Positions 13,972 to 47,279 of a stretch of 64,000 nt of DNA are shown here, one piece after another. Within the stretch, counting starts at the first letter, position 1, and each line of letters starts with the position of its first letter. The DNA lies in NCBI GenBank assembly GCA_030432255.1, contig JAUIHS010000009.1, forward strand, positions 1 through 64,000, read 5' to 3'. The DNA is from Phycisphaerae bacterium. Its GTDB lineage: Bacteria > Planctomycetota > Phycisphaerae > Phycisphaerales > UBA1924. The position numbers and the translations under genes are program-made. The notes below the pieces were generated by a model, which saw nothing but the letters and a program-made list of their open reading frames with translations, had not been told where the DNA came from and searched no databases.

Positions 13972-14002
13972 GCTCGGGATACGGGACACGGGAGCCGGGA
14001 GC

Positions 14003-14180
14003 CGGGTTGGATTGCCTTCGGCAGACATCATCAGGAGCTCCCGCTCCGCCGCTCTCATCTATTGAGTTATGTTCAGTTCGAAAGAGATTGCGAACAACCG
14101 CTCGAACGGGAGTGTGGTTGTCACTGCCAAACGCTGGAGCGGAAGCTCCTCAGGTTCTCTGCCAAAGGCAATCCAACCCG
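14003..14180. repeat. palindromic repeat element A
   Basis: The arms 14003-14052 and 14131-14180 are inverted copies with about 80 percent identity. Each runs from CGGGTTGGATTGCCT through a TTCGGC-like core to GGAGCT(T/C)CCGCTCC. Outside the arms lie G-rich tandem units on the left (CGGGAGC type, 13982-14006) and their degenerate complement on the right (to about 14209). The 78-nt spacer has no gene. It sits between the converging purC and coiled-coil genes, so as RNA it could form a long hairpin that ends both transcripts. The core matches elements B and C. Confidence 0.75.
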
Positions 14181-14211
14181 TGCCCCGATTCCCGACTCCC
14201 GATCCCCGAGC

Positions 14212-17180: not shown

Positions 17181-17198
17181 TCGATGATCCCGTCAATC

Positions 17199-17231
17199 CA
17201 GCCACCAGCTACCAGCCACCAACCACCTACC
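17199..17231. repeat. CCAGCCACCAGCTACC tandem repeat
   Basis: Imperfect 7-10 nt units of the CCAGCCACCA type run up to and include the TPR-YggX stop codon (17227-17229). The same unit forms the outer arms of the element around the S23-like gene at 46.1-46.6 kb. Confidence 0.6.
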
Positions 17232-17844
17232 GCCCCAGCTTCTCCAGCAGTTCATCAGTCAGGCCGAGGTACTCGTACATGTAGCGGTCGTACGTGGCTG
17301 AGTCTTCTTCACGGGACAGGTCGAGGCGGAGTTCGTTGATAACCTTGGTGCCCTGGCCGATCCAGTCGTTCCACGTTTCGCGCGAGATGTGTTCGCGGAT
17401 CCACTCGCCGATCGCACCCTTGAAGGGTGGGTCCTCCATCTGGGTGCCGGGCCGGCCCGACTGCTGGCAGATGAAGCTGCCTTCGGGGATGGTCTCCTCG
17501 GGCGCGTCCGTGACTTCGGGAGGAGCTTCACCGATCGCTTCAAAGAGTTCGGCCATGGCGCGCTTGGGCATCAGGTCGCCCTTCACGGTCGCAACCTCGT
17601 AGCCCGTGCGCAGCATGCTCAGGGCGTCGCCGCGGCGGTCGACCTGGATGAGGCTGGCAGCGCCCAGTTGGTACGCCTTGCTCATATCGGGGTTGGCCGT
17701 GATGCAGCGCTGAAAAGCGGCAGCGGCGTCGTCGTGACGTCCGGCCTGTGCGTAGGCGGAGCCGAGCGAGAAGTGTGCCATCTCGTTGTCAGGGTCGGCC
17801 TGGGCCATGTTTTCAAACTGCGCGATTCTCTGATCGAGGTCCAT
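17227..17844 (-). CDS. TPR protein fused to an Fe(2+)-trafficking (YggX) domain
   Basis: The 205-residue protein starts at ATG 17844 behind a GGAGAA site; an upstream extension to 17922 runs through a repeat and was rejected. Residues about 1-75 contain two TPR-like units (DNEMAHFSLGSAYAQAGRHD). Residues about 120-205 match YggX, including IREHISRETWNDWIGQGTKV and the INELRLDLS stretch, with one Cys near the start of the domain (FICQQSGRPG), as in YggX. YggX proteins protect Fe-S clusters and are linked to iron trafficking; they are normally stand-alone proteins of about 90 residues. It is divergent from the zincin gene, with element B between them. Confidence 0.82.
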   Translation of the reverse strand: MDLDQRIAQFENMAQADPDNEMAHFSLGSAYAQAGRHDDAAAAFQRCITANPDMSKAYQLGAASLIQVDRRGDALSMLRTGYEVATVKGDLMPKRAMAELFEAIGEAPPEVTDAPEETIPEGSFICQQSGRPGTQMEDPPFKGAIGEWIREHISRETWNDWIGQGTKVINELRLDLSREEDSATYDRYMYEYLGLTDELLEKLGR

Positions 17845-17896: not shown

Positions 17897-18086
17897 GGCA
17901 TCGGGCACCCGGCATCCGGCATCCGGGTTTGTGCGCCTTCGGCGTGAGACTTGTAGAGCTACCGCTCCTTGACTGTCTGCCGAGACGAAATTGAACCCTG
18001 AGCATTCACCAGCGGAGCGGAAGCTCCTCCAGATTCTCCGCCGAAGGCGCACAACCCCGGGTGCCGGATGCCCAATGCCCGATGCC
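17897..18086. repeat. palindromic repeat element B
   Basis: Arms 17897-17974 and 18008-18086 are long inverted copies. The outer 30 nt consist of GGCATC/CCGG tandem units, followed by TTGTGCGCCTTCGGCG and ending with the GGAGCTTCCGCTCC core. The spacer is only about 33 nt. It fills most of the 267-nt region between the divergent TPR-YggX and zincin genes, and the right arm ends 14 nt before the zincin -10-like box. It shares core and plan with element A. Confidence 0.8.
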
Positions 18087-30620: not shown

Positions 30621-30728
<108 letters not shown>

Positions 30729-40485: not shown

Positions 40486-43179
40486 ATGCTCACGCCGCAG
40501 CAATACCAGACGGCTCGCGAACTCTTCGCCCGGGCCCGGGAGGCCCCATCGGCGGCTCGCGATTCGGTTATCCGGGAGTGCCTTGACCCCGTCGTTCGCG
40601 ACGAGGTCCGGAGCCTGCTTGCCCTGGATGACGAGGAGACGGACTTCCTTGACCGCCCGGTGCTCAAGGACGCCGCGAGGGGAGCGGCGGTAGCGATGCT
40701 ATCGGACGATGACGGCAGTCTTGTGGGGTCCACAATCGATGGGTTCATGATCCGCGATGTGATTGCGAGCGGCGGCATGGGGACGGTCTATCGGGCGCAG
40801 CAGTCGAATCCCCGGCGCGAGGTGGCGCTCAAGCTTCTCCGGTATGGCATCACGTCGACGCAGGCTCAGCGTCGGTTTGACTATGAGACGCAGATCCTGG
40901 CGCGGCTCCGGCATCCCAACATCGCGCAGATCTACGACTCCGGCATGTGGGACTCGGGCTCGTGTCGGATTCCATGGTTCGCGATGGAGTATGTCCGGAA
41001 CAGTCGGACCATCATCGACTATGCGAAGGATGCGGTGCTCGATCGGCGCGAGCGGCTGCGGCTGTTCATGACCGTGTGCGATGCGATCAACCATGGTCAC
41101 CAGAAGGGCGTGATCCATCGCGACCTGAAGCCGGCGAACATTCTCGTGGAGGATTCGGCCGGTCAGCCCGTGGCGAAGGTCATCGACTTCGGGGTTGCGA
41201 AGTCCACGGATGCCGAGGTGGCGATGACGACGATGCACACGCATATCGGGCAGCTCATCGGCACGTTGCCGTACATGAGTCCGGAGCAGTGTTCCGGAGA
41301 GCCGGACCGGGTGGACGTGCGAAGTGACGTGTATGCGCTGGGGGTGATCCTCTATGAACTGCTTGCGGGCGAGCATCCGTTTGACCTGCACGACAAGCCG
41401 CTCGCGGAGGCAGCCCGAGTCATCCAGAGTGTTCAGCCATCGAAACCGTCAACGCATCGGCCCGAACTCCGCGGCGATCTTGAGACGATCATTCTCAAGG
41501 CCATTGAGAAGGATCGCGACGATCGTTACCAGGGCGTGAGCCTGCTGCGCGCGGACATTCAGCGTTTCCTGGAGAACCAGCCGATCGAAGCGACGCCCCC
41601 CACGATTCGTCGCCAGCTCACGCTCTTTGCGCGTCGACACCGGCCATTCGTGGCGGCGGCGGCGATGGTGGCGGTGACGATGGTCGCGGCGGTTGCGGTG
41701 AGCACGAGTTTCGGCTTCACGGCGCAGGCGGAAGCGGAGGCTCGGCGCACGGAGCAGCAGCGTGCGGAGGACATCAATCGCTTCCTGCGCGACATGCTGC
41801 TCCAGTCCTCGCCGGACTTCGGTGCTGGTCCGGACCTGACGGTGGGTGACATGCTTGACCGGGCGGCGAAGGAGATTTCGGATCGCATCGAGGACCCGCT
41901 GGTCGAGGCGGGGATCCATGTGACTGTCGCGGAGGCGTACGACGCGCTGGGCCGTTTTGACGAGGGTCTGGAGCACGCGATGGTGGCTCACAACATTCAC
42001 CGGGCGCTGCTAGCCCCATCGGATCGTCCGTTCATTGAATCGCTGGCTGCGGTGGCGCGGGCGCAGTTTCGGGTTGGTCGCATCGAGGAATCGGAGGTCA
42101 TGTTGCGGGAAACGCTTGTTCTTGCGGACCGGCACCTGGCGCCGCATGACTCGATCACGCGGAACGCCATGAGCGTACTCGCGATGTCGCTGGCGCAGCG
42201 CGGGTTCTTTGATGAGGCGGAGTCCCTCTATGATCGGGCGATCGCGTTGCAGCTTATTGCGACCGAGGAGGATGATCCGGAAACGCTCACGCTGATGAAT
42301 GCGTACGGCGTATTCCTGCATCACGCGGGCGCCATTGATGAGTCTGAAGAGGTGCTCCGCGAGGTTCTGGACAAGCGGACTGCGATCCTGGGGCCGGACC
42401 ACGCCCAGACGCTCACGTCGATGAACAACCTGGGCAACCTGCTTCGCAGCAACGGCCGGATGACCGAAGCGCTGGAGTATCTCGAAGCGACCGTCGAAGC
42501 GCGGCGGCGCGTCCTTCCGTCGGGCCATCCGGAAACGCTCACCGCGATGAACAACCTGGGCATCGTCTACAAGCGCCTTGGACGGCTGGACGAGGCACTC
42601 GTGCTGGCGCGCGACGTTCATGCCGCGCGCGCCGCCACGTTGGGCGAGGGGCACCCGCGCACGCTGACAGCCGCTCACAATCTCGCGCGCACACTTCAGG
42701 CGCAGAACAAGATGGCCGAGGCGGAGGCGACCTTCCGCGAGATCCTTCGTCTTTCGGACCTGCAACCCGGCCCCCGAAGCCCGCGTACGCTCACGACGGC
42801 CGGCGATCTGGCGGTCGTGCTGGGGTTGCGCGAGGATGGTGTCGAGGAAGCCGTCGCGATTCTCCAGCGGACGTACCTTGAAGCGATCGAGATTCTGCCG
42901 CCGGATCACTGGCACATCGCCAAGTACCAGACGCTCCTCGCGGTGGCGATGAGCAAACTGGGCGGTACGGAGGAAGAGGTGGAGTCGCACCTCAGGCAGG
43001 CGGAGACGATGATGCTCGAAGCGGAGGCGCGCCTCCAGACTCTCGTCGGACCGACGCATCCGCAGACGCGGTACACGCGCCAGAAACTCGCTTTGCTCTA
43101 TGCCGAGAAACTGAACGAACCTGAGAAGGCGGAGCCGTTCTGGGACAAGCCCCCGTCAGAGCCGGGCGGCGGCGAATGA
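40486..43179 (+). CDS. serine/threonine protein kinase with TPR repeats
   Basis: The 897-residue protein has an N-terminal segment typical of planctomycete kinases (about 1-80), then a Hanks-type kinase domain from about 88. It shows ASGGMGTVYRAQ, the catalytic HRDLKPANILV (His211, Asp213), DFGVAKS and YMSPEQCSG. One transmembrane helix lies at about 388-408. The C-terminal half is a run of TPR units of about 42 residues (HAQTLTSMNNLGNLLRSNGR repeated). It is likely a membrane signalling kinase with a TPR partner-binding region. GAGGAG precedes ATG 40486. Its last 24 nt overlap the end of alaS. Confidence 0.92.
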   Translation: MLTPQQYQTARELFARAREAPSAARDSVIRECLDPVVRDEVRSLLALDDEETDFLDRPVLKDAARGAAVAMLSDDDGSLVGSTIDGFMIRDVIASGGMGTVYRAQQSNPRREVALKLLRYGITSTQAQRRFDYETQILARLRHPNIAQIYDSGMWDSGSCRIPWFAMEYVRNSRTIIDYAKDAVLDRRERLRLFMTVCDAINHGHQKGVIHRDLKPANILVEDSAGQPVAKVIDFGVAKSTDAEVAMTTMHTHIGQLIGTLPYMSPEQCSGEPDRVDVRSDVYALGVILYELLAGEHPFDLHDKPLAEAARVIQSVQPSKPSTHRPELRGDLETIILKAIEKDRDDRYQGVSLLRADIQRFLENQPIEATPPTIRRQLTLFARRHRPFVAAAAMVAVTMVAAVAVSTSFGFTAQAEAEARRTEQQRAEDINRFLRDMLLQSSPDFGAGPDLTVGDMLDRAAKEISDRIEDPLVEAGIHVTVAEAYDALGRFDEGLEHAMVAHNIHRALLAPSDRPFIESLAAVARAQFRVGRIEESEVMLRETLVLADRHLAPHDSITRNAMSVLAMSLAQRGFFDEAESLYDRAIALQLIATEEDDPETLTLMNAYGVFLHHAGAIDESEEVLREVLDKRTAILGPDHAQTLTSMNNLGNLLRSNGRMTEALEYLEATVEARRRVLPSGHPETLTAMNNLGIVYKRLGRLDEALVLARDVHAARAATLGEGHPRTLTAAHNLARTLQAQNKMAEAEATFREILRLSDLQPGPRSPRTLTTAGDLAVVLGLREDGVEEAVAILQRTYLEAIEILPPDHWHIAKYQTLLAVAMSKLGGTEEEVESHLRQAETMMLEAEARLQTLVGPTHPQTRYTRQKLALLYAEKLNEPEKAEPFWDKPPSEPGGGE

Positions 43180-46038
43180 CCTGGCGGTCTCGATGGCCTC
43201 GGGGACTTTCGTCGGTTCCGTTCCGCCACCTTGAGCGGATTCGGGACGGCCGCCGCCCTTCCCGCCGCAGATTGCGGAGACTTCGCGCACCCAGTCTCCG
43301 GCCTTGAGGCCCGACGACACGAGCGCCGAAGGCACATTGGCGACGATGCTGACCTTGCCTTCGTCATCGTCAGCGGAGAAGAGCATCAGGGCCGCTTCTT
43401 CGTGTCTGGACCGGATGGCATCCAGCGCGGCCATGAGCGCACCGCGATCAGAGCCTGCGGGGATGGCAGCGACGATGACCGAGCCGGTGGCCTCGTCGGC
43501 GACGGCTCGTGCGGCCTCGACGGCGGATTCGCGTCCGGCCTTCGCCGCCTGCTTGCGGAGTCCCTTCACGCGTTCGTTGAGGCGTTCGAGCATGCCTCGA
43601 AGCTTGGCCTTGAGGGCAAGTGGGATCTCGGCCTGATCGAGTGCTTCCTGGATGGCACGCGCTTCTTCGGGGAGGTCGTCATCGCTGAAGTTGCCGGCCG
43701 CTCGGATGCGTGCCTGCAATTCGTTGCCGAGCACATGGGCGGCGCGGGCCGCATCCCGGGTCAGGGCCTGGAGTCGGCGAACTCCGGCGGAGACGCTTTC
43801 CTCGGCCACGATGGCGAAGGCTTCCGCCTCACCGGTGCGCGTCAGGTGCGTGCCGCCACAGAATTCGATCGAGAGTTCGCGCCAGCGCGTCTCTTCGGGC
43901 GCATCGAGCAACCGCTCGACGGGTGCGCCGATGGAGACGACTCGGACCGGGTCGGGGTACGTCTCACCGAAGACGGCGCGGAGGCCGTTCACGCGCTTGG
44001 CATCCTCCAGTGATGCGACGCTGGCGAAGACCTCAAGGTCCTTCGCAACGGCTGCGCTCACGTGTTCCTGGATGGCGTTAAGTTGATCGGGGGTCAGCGG
44101 CGCGGTGTGGCTGAAGTCGAAGCGCAGGCGCTCGGGGACCACGAGGGAGCCCTTCTGGTCGATGTGATCACCCAGCGACTGACGGAGAGCGTGGTTGAGC
44201 AGGTGTGTCGCGGTGTGGTTGGCTGCGATCTCGGTGCGGCGTTTCGCATCAAGGCGCAGTTCCACGGTGTCGCCGACGCGGATCTCACCCTTGCGGATGC
44301 GTCCGATGTGCAGGACGTAGCCGCCGCAGTTCTGTACGTCCTCGACGATGAACTCGCCGCCGTCGTGATTGTCCTGCACGCTGCCGCGGCGCTCGCGGCT
44401 GACATTGAGTCGGCCGGCATCGGCGACCTGTCCGCCCATTTCCGCGTAGAAGTTGGTTCGATCGAGGATGACACCGAAGCGATCGGTGGGCCGGGTGTGT
44501 GAGGCGAGGATGTGTTCGTCGAAGTCGGTCCCGTTCCAGATGGCGACGACATGACCCGAGATGCGTCGACCGTGGAACTTGTCGAGATCGTCAGTGGGTT
44601 TCGCACCCAGTTTCTGAAGGTCGGCGATGCCCTCGGTGCCGAGTTGCATCGCGGCGGCGCCGGACGCTTTTCCAGCTTCGCGCGAGCGGCGGCGCGCGCC
44701 TTCCATCAGGGTGGTGAAGCCTTCGCTGTCGACGGCCATGCCGCGTTCCTCGGCCATGAGCATGGTGAGATCGATCGGGAATCCGTAGGTATCGTGCAAC
44801 TGGAAGGCATCTTCGGCCGAGATGGCCTTCGGTTCGGTGGCGGCCCCGCGTTCGGCGGCCTTGTCGAAGAGGGCGAGTCCCTGCTTGAGGGTCCGACCGA
44901 AGGCGTCCTCTTCGTCGCGGATGATGCGCACGACGCGTTCCGGGTCCTTGGTGAGTTCGGGGAATGCTTCACCCATCATGGAGATCACGGTGGGCACGAG
45001 TTCGTGCAGGAACGTTCCATCAACGCCCAGCGTCTGTCGCCCGTAGCGCACAGCGCGTCGGAGGATGCGGCGCAGGACATAGCCCCGTCCATCGTTGGAG
45101 GGTTCGGCGCCGTCGGTGATCGCGAAGGTCAGCGTGCGGATGTGATCGGCGAGCACGCGGTAGGCGACGTCCTCGGGTTTGTCGAGGACACCGGTGTAGG
45201 GCGCGGCGTTGCACACTTCGCGGATGCGCTCGAAGAGTGGCGTAAAGACATCGGTGTCGTAGTTCGAAGTCTTGCCCTGAAGGATTCGCGTGATGCGTTC
45301 GAGGCCCATGCCGGTATCGACATGCTTGGCGGGAAGCGGACGCAGGCCATCGGGCTGGCGATCGAACTGGATGAAGACGAGGTTCCACACCTCGATGACA
45401 TCGGGGCTGTCCTGATTGACGAGTTGATAGCCGGGGACGGCGGCGCGTTCGTCGTCGGAGCGACCGTCGTAGTGGATTTCCGAGCAGGGGCCGCAGGGCC
45501 CCGTGTCGCCCATCTCCCAGAAGTTGTCCTTGGTATTCCCGGGGATGATTCGGCTGGCGGGGAGGAACCGGCTCCAGAGGTCGTACGCTTCACGATCCGG
45601 ATCGAGCCCGAGATCGGGATCACCCTGGAAGTACGTCGCGTAGAGGCGTTCGGGGTCGAGTCCCCAGACATCGGTCAGCAGTTCCCACGCCCACTGCACG
45701 GACTCGGTCTTGAAGTAGTCCCCGAACGACCAGTTGCCGAGCATTTCGAAGAAGGTGTGGTGGTAGGTGTCCTTGCCGACGTCATCGAGGTCGTTGTGCT
45801 TGCCGCCGGCGCGGATGCACTTCTGGCTGTTGGCCGCCCGCTTCAGGCCCGCAAGCGGACTGCGCGGATCGACACTTCCGAGGAAGAGCGGCTTGTACTG
45901 GTTCATCCCGGCGTTGGTGAAGAGCAACGTGGGATCGTCATGCGGCACCACGGGAGACGACGGCACAAAATCATGCGACGCCCGTTCCTGGAAGAACGTG
46001 ATGAACTGCTCGCGAATCTGGTTGGCGGTGAGGGGCAT
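43156..46038 (-). CDS. alaS: alanyl-tRNA synthetase
   Basis: AlaRS charges tRNA-Ala and edits mischarged Ser or Gly. The 960-residue protein shows the class II core (FFQERASHDFVPSSPVVPHD, GKHNDLDDVGKDTYHHTFFE), the editing domain zinc motifs HTATHLL and CGGTHLTRTG, and a C-terminal C-Ala domain ending in CGGKGGGRPESAQGGG. It is about 80 residues longer than the E. coli protein, mainly through linkers. The start is ATG 46038, with an AGGA site. It converges with, and overlaps, the kinase gene. Confidence 0.95.
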   Translation of the reverse strand: MPLTANQIREQFITFFQERASHDFVPSSPVVPHDDPTLLFTNAGMNQYKPLFLGSVDPRSPLAGLKRAANSQKCIRAGGKHNDLDDVGKDTYHHTFFEMLGNWSFGDYFKTESVQWAWELLTDVWGLDPERLYATYFQGDPDLGLDPDREAYDLWSRFLPASRIIPGNTKDNFWEMGDTGPCGPCSEIHYDGRSDDERAAVPGYQLVNQDSPDVIEVWNLVFIQFDRQPDGLRPLPAKHVDTGMGLERITRILQGKTSNYDTDVFTPLFERIREVCNAAPYTGVLDKPEDVAYRVLADHIRTLTFAITDGAEPSNDGRGYVLRRILRRAVRYGRQTLGVDGTFLHELVPTVISMMGEAFPELTKDPERVVRIIRDEEDAFGRTLKQGLALFDKAAERGAATEPKAISAEDAFQLHDTYGFPIDLTMLMAEERGMAVDSEGFTTLMEGARRRSREAGKASGAAAMQLGTEGIADLQKLGAKPTDDLDKFHGRRISGHVVAIWNGTDFDEHILASHTRPTDRFGVILDRTNFYAEMGGQVADAGRLNVSRERRGSVQDNHDGGEFIVEDVQNCGGYVLHIGRIRKGEIRVGDTVELRLDAKRRTEIAANHTATHLLNHALRQSLGDHIDQKGSLVVPERLRFDFSHTAPLTPDQLNAIQEHVSAAVAKDLEVFASVASLEDAKRVNGLRAVFGETYPDPVRVVSIGAPVERLLDAPEETRWRELSIEFCGGTHLTRTGEAEAFAIVAEESVSAGVRRLQALTRDAARAAHVLGNELQARIRAAGNFSDDDLPEEARAIQEALDQAEIPLALKAKLRGMLERLNERVKGLRKQAAKAGRESAVEAARAVADEATGSVIVAAIPAGSDRGALMAALDAIRSRHEEAALMLFSADDDEGKVSIVANVPSALVSSGLKAGDWVREVSAICGGKGGGRPESAQGGGTEPTKVPEAIETARSFAAARL

Positions 46039-46073: not shown

Positions 46074-46079
46074 ATTATA
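46074..46079 (-). promoter_or_regulatory. -10 box TATAAT upstream of alaS
   Basis: A perfect TATAAT on the reverse strand, 35 nt before the alaS ATG. The -35 position (about 46097-46102) falls in the G-rich outer arm of the IVS-like element and reads GCCACC, which is not a -35 sequence. Confidence 0.5.
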
Positions 46080-46568
46080 AGAGGTGGCTGGTGGCGGGTG
46101 GCTGGTAGCGGGGTCCATTTGCCGGATCTGTGCAGTCCGCGTAGCCTCCGGGTACTTCCGGAGGAGAGACATGGCTCAGGTTCGACGATTTCAGGATCTC
46201 ATCGCGTGGCAGCGGGCCATCGAGGTCGCTCAGACCACCTATCGCGTCACACGCGCCTTCCCGATTGACGAACGATTCGGCCTCACGAACCAGATGCGGC
46301 GGGCAGCGGTGTCCGTATCAGCAAACATTGCTGAAGGCTATGGCCGGGGCAGTGCCGGTGACTTCCTGCGCTTCCTCAGAATCGCTCGCGGCTCGTTGAA
46401 TGAACTTGAGTCGCTCGCTCATGTCGCCAGCCTGGAAGGTTTTCTTGGACCAAGGCAGTCCGACGTCCTGCAGAATGCCATCGCGGGTTGCGGCAGGCCA
46501 CTCGCGGGCCTCATCCGCAGGGCAAACTCGAACCCAGCCACCAGCCACCCGTAACCAGCCACCCGTTA
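46078..46568. mobile_element. IVS-like element: inverted-repeat-flanked four-helix-bundle gene
   Basis: GGTGGCTGGT-type tandem units (46081-46112) reappear inverted at 46532-46567. Inside them a weaker inverted match continues: a TTTGCC, GGAT, CCGC pattern at about 46116-46131 and 46514-46527. The enclosed gene is of the 23S rRNA intervening-sequence (S23) type. Similar inverted-repeat-flanked ORFs form the IVS of Leptospira and Coxiella 23S rRNA, but here the element lies between alaS and a FAH gene. The arms reach the alaS -10 box on one side and the FAH stop codon on the other. Mobility is inferred. Confidence 0.6.
46171..46554 (+). CDS. four-helix-bundle protein (23S rRNA IVS / S23 family)
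   Basis: The 127-residue protein starts at ATG 46171 after a strong CCGGAGGAG site. It has the family pattern: FQDLIAWQRAIEVAQTTYRV, FPIDERFGLTNQMRRAAVSV, SANIAEGYGR and FLRFLRIARGSLNELESLAH. Relatives are encoded in 23S rRNA intervening sequences and, as Avd, in diversity-generating retroelements, where they bind nucleic acid. Its last residues (NPATSHP) and stop are encoded by the repeat arm itself. No reverse transcriptase is near. Confidence 0.88.
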   Translation: MAQVRRFQDLIAWQRAIEVAQTTYRVTRAFPIDERFGLTNQMRRAAVSVSANIAEGYGRGSAGDFLRFLRIARGSLNELESLAHVASLEGFLGPRQSDVLQNAIAGCGRPLAGLIRRANSNPATSHP

Positions 46569-47279
46569 CTCCTCCTCCACCTCATTCACCAGAACACCCA
46601 CGCCCTCGATTTCGACTTCGATGCGGTCGCCTTCGCTCAGCCAGATCTCGGGGTCGCGTGACATGCCGACGCCGCTGGGGGTGCCCGTCAGGATCACCGT
46701 GCCTGCCGGGAGGGTGGCGCCGCGGCTCAGTTCCGCGATCAGGTATTCGATGGGGAAGATCATGCGGGCTGTCGTGTCGCGCTGCATCACTTCGCCGTTC
46801 AGGCGGGTTTCGAGCAGGAGGGACTGCGGGTCCTCGATGTCGTCGGCGCGAGCCACCCATGGGCCGAGGGGGCAGAAGGTGTCGAATGACTTGCCGCGGC
46901 AGAACTGCCCCCCACTCCCCTTCTTCTGCCACCAGCGTGCCGAGACATCGTTGGCGGCGCAGTAACCGAGTACGCATCCCATGGCCTCGGTCTCCGAGAC
47001 GTCGCGTGCGGGTCGGCCGAGGATGACGGCGAGTTCGCCTTCGAAGTCGACCTGTGGGCGGTCCTGGCAGATGGACGGAATCATAATGCGATCACCGCTG
47101 AAGCACAGCGCGGATGGACTCTTGGTGAAGACCATCGGGCGTTCCGGCACGGGTGCTCCCTGCTCGTGCGCGTGTGCCGCGTAGTTCCTGCCGATGCCGA
47201 GGATGTACACCAGTGGCAGGACATCATCGTTGTCCAGTTTCACGCCCACCGTGTAGCCATGTCGCACGAGTTCGAACAT
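46566..47279 (-). CDS. fumarylacetoacetate hydrolase family protein
   Basis: The 237-residue protein matches the FAH superfamily: ILGIGRNYAAHAHEQG, the metal-binding VDFEGELAVILGR, the NDVSARWWQ segment and LTGTPSGVGMS. The family includes oxaloacetate decarboxylases, acylpyruvate hydrolases and catechol meta-cleavage enzymes; the substrate cannot be told from sequence. It starts 13 nt after the priA stop with GGGAG upstream, so it is probably transcribed with priA. Confidence 0.9.
   Translation of the reverse strand: MFELVRHGYTVGVKLDNDDVLPLVYILGIGRNYAAHAHEQGAPVPERPMVFTKSPSALCFSGDRIMIPSICQDRPQVDFEGELAVILGRPARDVSETEAMGCVLGYCAANDVSARWWQKKGSGGQFCRGKSFDTFCPLGPWVARADDIEDPQSLLLETRLNGEVMQRDTTARMIFPIEYLIAELSRGATLPAGTVILTGTPSGVGMSRDPEIWLSEGDRIEVEIEGVGVLVNEVEEE

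Follow-up and report, generated by a model that had tools for sequence, protein, structure and literature searches.

The closest described counterparts of the unit analyzed here are the intervening sequences (IVSs) of 23S rRNA genes in Leptospira and Coxiella, in which inverted terminal arms likewise enclose a single ORF of the same gene family (PF05635), in a segment of similar size. The Coxiella IVS measures 428 nt, with tandem heptamers next to the S23p start and a 28-bp terminal stem, and the stem of 23S IVSs is cut by RNase III (PMC4990558). Genes of PF05635 are common, but their annotation goes no further than "four helix bundle protein" or "S23 ribosomal protein", and the question of their role dates back to the first description of the 23S intervening sequences. 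The encoded protein (IVP) is homologous to Avd (PMC10053308), its distant relative from the diversity-generating retroelements. Heptameric repeats are also known in other settings: G-rich heptamers are reported as a general feature of genomes such as those of Xanthomonas and Nostoc, with 70 cases of inverted heptamer pairs in Xcc (PMC4692102), and TAACTGA repeats occur in Beggiatoaceae (PMC4679880). These too are intergenic 7-nt tandem arrays, often in inverted pairs in Xanthomonas, yet the two studies describe one main repeat per genome, whereas the arms reported below are specific to each locus and matched around a gene; the main text of neither paper links the heptamers to an IVP gene. The REPIN/RAYT systems (PMC2817692, PMC3116915, PMC8049555) resemble the present case in their dispersed small hairpins, in that the rare copies with a gene have repeats of the same type at their flanks, and in the proposed relation between non-autonomous and autonomous forms. 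RAYT, however, is a tyrosine transposase on conserved REP ends, whereas IVP has no known catalytic site and its arms are not conserved in sequence. No prior description of IVP genes joined to heptamer arms outside rRNA was found in the open-access literature, which is not proof of absence.

The window, a stretch of 64,000 nt from a Phycisphaerae bacterium, holds a PF05635 gene between two protein genes, with the following features:

43156 to 46038, minus strand: alaS, the left neighbor (profile matches; context only)
46074 to 46079, minus strand: putative −10 box of alaS, TATAAT (consensus match only), which the left arm abuts
46078 to 46114, plus strand: 5' arm in gene sense, a G-rich array of tandem heptamers, (GGTGGCT)n and its variants, paired in the minimum-energy fold
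46146 to 46168, plus strand: local hairpin CCTCCGG..CCGGAGG, read from the sequence and seen in the fold
46171 to 46554, plus strand: IVP gene, 127 aa, four helix bundle of PF05635 / TIGR02436 (profile matches; solved relatives)
46532 to 46568, plus strand: 3' arm, a C-rich inverted heptamer array that contains the stop codons of two genes
46566 to 47279, minus strand: FAA hydrolase family gene, the right neighbor (profile match; context only)

The sequence-only reading had described an S23-like gene enclosed by inverted tandem arms together with a weaker inner inverted match, and both are borne out. The arms, of 37 nt each, are 84% complementary and 417 nt apart, rank first among 47 inverted pairs in the 1.25 kb searched, and reach a local inverted score of 47 against a median of 17 for the shuffled flanks of the whole locus set; alignment gives the inner match as TTTGCC / GGCAAA. 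The arms are composed of tandem heptamers, GGTGGCT on the left and AGCCACC on the right, with an additional period-14 component because alternate heptamer units differ. When positions 46078 to 46568 are folded as RNA, the arms pair together at −231 kcal/mol (z = −5.3), a value equaled by none of 100 shuffles; as in a 23S IVS, terminal inverted repeats thus close a long stem around an ORF. The last codons and stop of the IVP gene (46552 to 46554) are indeed written by the right arm, as had been claimed, and the stop of the convergent FAA-hydrolase gene (46566 to 46568, minus strand) also falls within it. The preferred start is the ATG at 46171, preceded by the Shine-Dalgarno sequence GGAGGAGAG (46160 to 46168), which is overlapped by the local hairpin, a perfect 7 bp. 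An alternative ORF of 156 aa, starting at a GTG, extends into the left arm and was set aside in favor of this better ATG. The sequence CTTCCGGAGG is also found upstream of the gene at L002, and in part at L001 and L003. The unit lies between alaS and the FAA-hydrolase gene rather than in a 23S rRNA gene, as the sequence-only reading had stated, and neither rRNA nor any other Rfam family was found in the window.

The protein matches PF05635 across the domain (E 6e-32, 110.4 bits against a cut-off of 33.8) as well as TIGR02436 (E 9e-31, 106.3 bits against a cut-off of 24). Five chains are present in each of its solved relatives, 2gsc (3e-22) and 2rld, which agrees with Avd being a pentamer. The match to NCBIfam DivGenRetAVD (5e-5, score 23.4) is below the cut-off of 80, and the unit has no reverse transcriptase, TR or VR, its neighbors being alaS and the FAA hydrolase gene, so that it differs from a diversity-generating retroelement. 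No catalytic domain, recombinase or transposase was detected in the unit, whose ORF matches PF05635-type families only. The reading of IVP as a defense gene was ruled out, as PADLOC gave no match, and all IVP homologues in the plasmid search were below 60% identity. Six Mesorhizobium orthologues give 7 comparable pairs, in which differences at the three codon positions number 74, 37 and 206, with 208 synonymous against 66 replacement codon differences; in this one set, the IVP gene is under purifying selection.

The generality of this architecture was surveyed at 153 PF05635 loci: 33 from the genome of the window and its order, 40 more from that order (20 high-scoring and 20 low-scoring members), and 80 from species of many phyla, picked on protein similarity alone. 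The sequence-only reading had made its element model depend on inverted arms in other family members, and such arms, sought within 250 nt of the gene at a threshold score of 28, are present at 131 of the 153 loci (score at least 28); the 22 loci under the threshold (about 14%) may include decayed or distant arms. The median local inverted score between the upstream flank and the reverse complement of the downstream flank is 41 to 42, compared to medians of 17 to 20 both for direct comparison and for arms exchanged between loci, and of 17 after shuffling of the flanks; these three controls rule out a chance origin. That the two arms of a locus evolve together is supported mainly by the background score of swapped arms: the repeat differs from locus to locus, yet the arms match within each. 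Restriction of the arms to a high-scoring subfamily was likewise ruled out, since 17 of the 20 low-scoring members are armed, and a known RNA family was rejected, as 20 related loci gave no Rfam match.

The dimensions of the units are also regular. Around the 80 diverse loci, 87 period-7 arrays lie within 0 to 100 nt of the IVP gene, compared to about 1.7 per 100 nt at 600 to 3000 nt, an enrichment of roughly 50-fold at the gene ends, and period 8 is the only other clearly enriched period. The arms are 371 to 489 nt apart (5th to 95th percentile), with median spacings of 19 nt from the 5' arm to the start codon and 8 nt from the stop codon to the 3' arm; the start codon is within 20 nt of the arm in 56 of 119 units, and the 5' arm is G-rich at 123 of the 131 armed loci. 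The element is thus built of two inverted arrays of 7- or 8-nt repeats around one IVP gene, with about 400 nt between the arms. Each of the four PF05635 genes in the genome of the window has inverted-sense heptamer arrays nearby, each with a different heptamer, and two of these loci (L002 and L003) score low in the strict arm-pairing test. In Rhizobiaceae, the arms at L136 have a period of 8 (AGGGCAGT), i.e., the common heptamer AGGCAGT plus one G; periods 7 and 8 may be interconvertible. Two PF05635 genes of a single genome (G041; L061 and L311), 80% identical to each other, have no recognizable arms and represent a different way of life inside the family.

Neighboring genes are unrelated between loci, and the units occur in both strand orientations relative to them. 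Their insertion points lie between protein genes and frequently at a stop codon; the distance from the arm to the upstream stop is a partly circular measure, as the arms often hold stops, a bias that is avoided only by comparison with empty sites. Such a site without the unit had been sought in relatives of the window's genome, and the FAA hydrolase–alaS junction indeed shows a spacer of 41 to 135 nt, with neither IVP nor repeats, in six relatives, which belong to other genera and are too distant to judge the insertion point or a target duplication. TATA-like sequences upstream of alaS are also present in several relatives lacking the unit. In genome G009, which has no FAA hydrolase gene at the site, an arm-only hairpin adjoins alaS, and its heptamer, GGGCAAT, is that of an IVP unit in that genome.

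Closer comparisons are afforded by the Rhizobiales. The junction between nuoC and nuoD (genes named from sequence, without a search) carries a unit-sized insert in 16 of 26 genomes, is empty in 8, and holds an arm-only hairpin in one and another insert in one; where it is occupied, the first three letters of the arm often serve as the NuoC stop codon. A second junction, upstream of a 3-hydroxyisobutyrate-dehydrogenase-like gene (likewise named from sequence), is occupied in 8 genomes and contiguous in 8. Some genomes carry a unit at one of the two junctions only, in each combination; G095, for example, is occupied at nuoC–nuoD and empty at the second junction, and G094 shows the reverse. At these two junctions, the whole unit is an element that is gained and lost. 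Arm-only or decayed hairpins are seen at L330 (nuoC–nuoD, G110) and L359 (second site, G097), at junctions with IVP units elsewhere in Rhizobiales. The heptamers of the nuoC–nuoD units vary by genus (GTGAGTA, GGCAATA, GTGAATG), and the two arms of each unit match, while the IVP proteins are 50 to 95% identical and the flanking DNA 77 to 96%. The differing heptamers reflect either turnover of the arms in place or repeated insertion at one spot, and the presence of units here in Rhizobium, Mesorhizobium and Bosea alike is as compatible with long inheritance as with repeated insertion. No clear case of target duplication was seen at either junction. In Moorena, two units (L085 and L104) share 92% identity along 367 nt, and beyond this stretch repeats are the only collinear homology between the loci; L104 has a C-rich 5' arm, its arms being in the opposite sense to those of L085, as though the gene had been flipped between its arms. 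The best match of an IVP copy lies within its own genome for 7 of 55 copies, copies of one genome being usually no closer than those in other genera, and no recent within-genome burst of IVP copies was seen.

The window unit likely belongs to the gene-carrying members of a class of hairpin elements that resemble the 23S IVSs and also insert outside rRNA, and is a compact element whose mobility is seen as gain and loss. The insertions in 23S rRNA probably mark just one of the places reached by a much wider class of small elements; the present units differ from them in lying between protein genes and in having arms that differ per locus. The sequence-only reading had proposed a small element able to spread by itself. 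Its first half is upheld by the presence and absence of whole units at the two Rhizobiales junctions, whereas independent spread is not supported: the unit encodes no recombinase, same-genome best matches are few, no clear target duplication was seen, and certain copies have stayed at one site.

Since the pairing is conserved, a folded transcript or a DNA cruciform would seem to matter. The strand bias, with a G-rich 5' arm that frequently lies next to the start codon, suggests that the arm acts in RNA or in IVP translation; the IVP protein is a plausible candidate for the stem-binding partner. By analogy with the 23S IVS, the transcript would fold into a long stem to be trimmed by RNase III or another nuclease, and such trimming would explain how the insert is tolerated in operons and rRNA. 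IVP, as an Avd-like oligomer, might bind its own stem or the heptamer DNA, and could promote copying or insertion with the help of a host enzyme, either a reverse transcriptase or the replication machinery. Slippage and copying between the arms would keep them alike.

The same bias of the 5' arm and its closeness to the start codon would also be expected of a resident regulatory module, in which the hairpin and an autoregulated IVP control the neighboring genes and are inherited mostly vertically, the pattern of presence and absence being due to losses. The 3' arm would then sequester the 5' arm, in or beside which the ribosome-binding site often lies, and IVP would bind the stem. The purifying selection on the gene, the long persistence of units between nuoC and nuoD, and, for the window unit, the putative alaS promoter box beside its arm are all in line with such a module. 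It is nevertheless considered unlikely, as the neighbors are unrelated from locus to locus and the units lie in both orientations to them, close relatives have empty sites at two independent places, and the 92% identical Moorena units have unrelated flanks.

Besides the gene-carrying units, the genome of the window contains many arrays and hairpins without IVP. An 850-kb sample of this genome, to which these counts refer, has 92 period-7 arrays, compared to 1 to 13 for the other periods from 4 to 15 except 14; twenty inverted pairs occur within 700 nt, and 25 arrays have a partner, compared to 2 in the reversed control. Several arm-only hairpins have the common core GGAGCTTCCGCTCC ... GGAGCGGAAGCTCC, flanked by GCCTTCGGC / GCCGAAGGC. 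Two of them lie in the window:

13975 to 14209, no strand assigned: arm-only hairpin lacking IVP, its arms made of CGGGANN heptamers, with a conserved core of the GGAGCTCCCGCTCC/GGAGCGGAAGCTCC type
17897 to 18086, no strand assigned: arm-only hairpin lacking IVP, its arms made of GGCATCC heptamers, with a core of the GGAGCTCCCGCTCC/GGAGCGGAAGCTCC type

A 13-mer of the core, GGAGCGGAAGCTC, has 38 exact copies in this genome and 0 to 3 in each of 60 relatives; of 33 copies inspected, 28 are near a period-7 or period-8 array and 18 have matching inverted arms. Half of the core also lies between the 5' arm and the gene of the IVP unit L001. Together, the 38 copies and this half-core indicate that the lineage has amplified heptamer-armed hairpins, to which one IVP unit is related. 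By analogy with REPINs and RAYT genes, the arm-only hairpins may be non-autonomous derivatives of the gene-carrying units.

The abundance of arrays lacking IVP, here and in Xanthomonas and Nostoc (PMC4692102), could alternatively mean that the arrays expand by themselves, through slippage and hairpin copying, and lodge near many genes, IVP being merely a frequent neighbor or a captured one. Genomes without IVP have few arrays in 100-kb samples, and several IVP-positive genomes also have few; two of the latter (G028 and G057) have few or none in such a sample, yet most of their IVP genes have matched arms. With the peak of arrays at the gene ends and the standard unit length of about 400 nt, this makes the role of passive cargo for IVP very improbable. 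Least probable of all is the action in trans of a known, unlinked transposase (e.g., Y1/RAYT or IS-type) on the hairpin ends, since, in spite of the REP/RAYT-like picture of many dispersed hairpins with few gene-carrying copies (PMC2817692, PMC3116915), no HUH/Y1 transposase gene flanked by REPs was found in the unit, the conserved termini of ISs and MITEs are lacking, no target-site duplication was seen at the second Rhizobiales junction, and swapped-arm scores at background show termini unlike the ends that one transposase recognizes.

If the reading as a gained and lost hairpin element is extended, a wide bacterial class of mobile elements can be envisaged, with heptamer or octamer hairpin arms, a four-helix-bundle nucleic-acid-binding protein and no recognized recombinase, employing for example RNA- or replication-templated copying; the 23S IVSs and the dispersed heptamer hairpins would be its special cases. 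This broader proposal is put forward tentatively, its chances being placed somewhat below even. The finding itself offers one architecture for PF05635 genes across many phyla, predicts an RNA bound by the protein, suggests a reason for the fragmented 23S rRNAs of some bacteria, and brings together, as one kind of element, the heptamer repeats described separately in Xanthomonas, cyanobacteria and Coxiella. Matched arms vary naturally and so form a ready test set for pairing and processing.

Two further arrays in the window are of note. At positions 30621 to 30727, GGGGAGC heptamers pass into a long tract of G, which may reflect expansion of the array or an assembly artifact. A single CCAGCCA array at 17198 to 17234 has the heptamer of the IVP arms at 46.1 and 46.5 kb, and this repeat has 39 exact 16-mer matches in the genome, compared to 1 in the reversed control.
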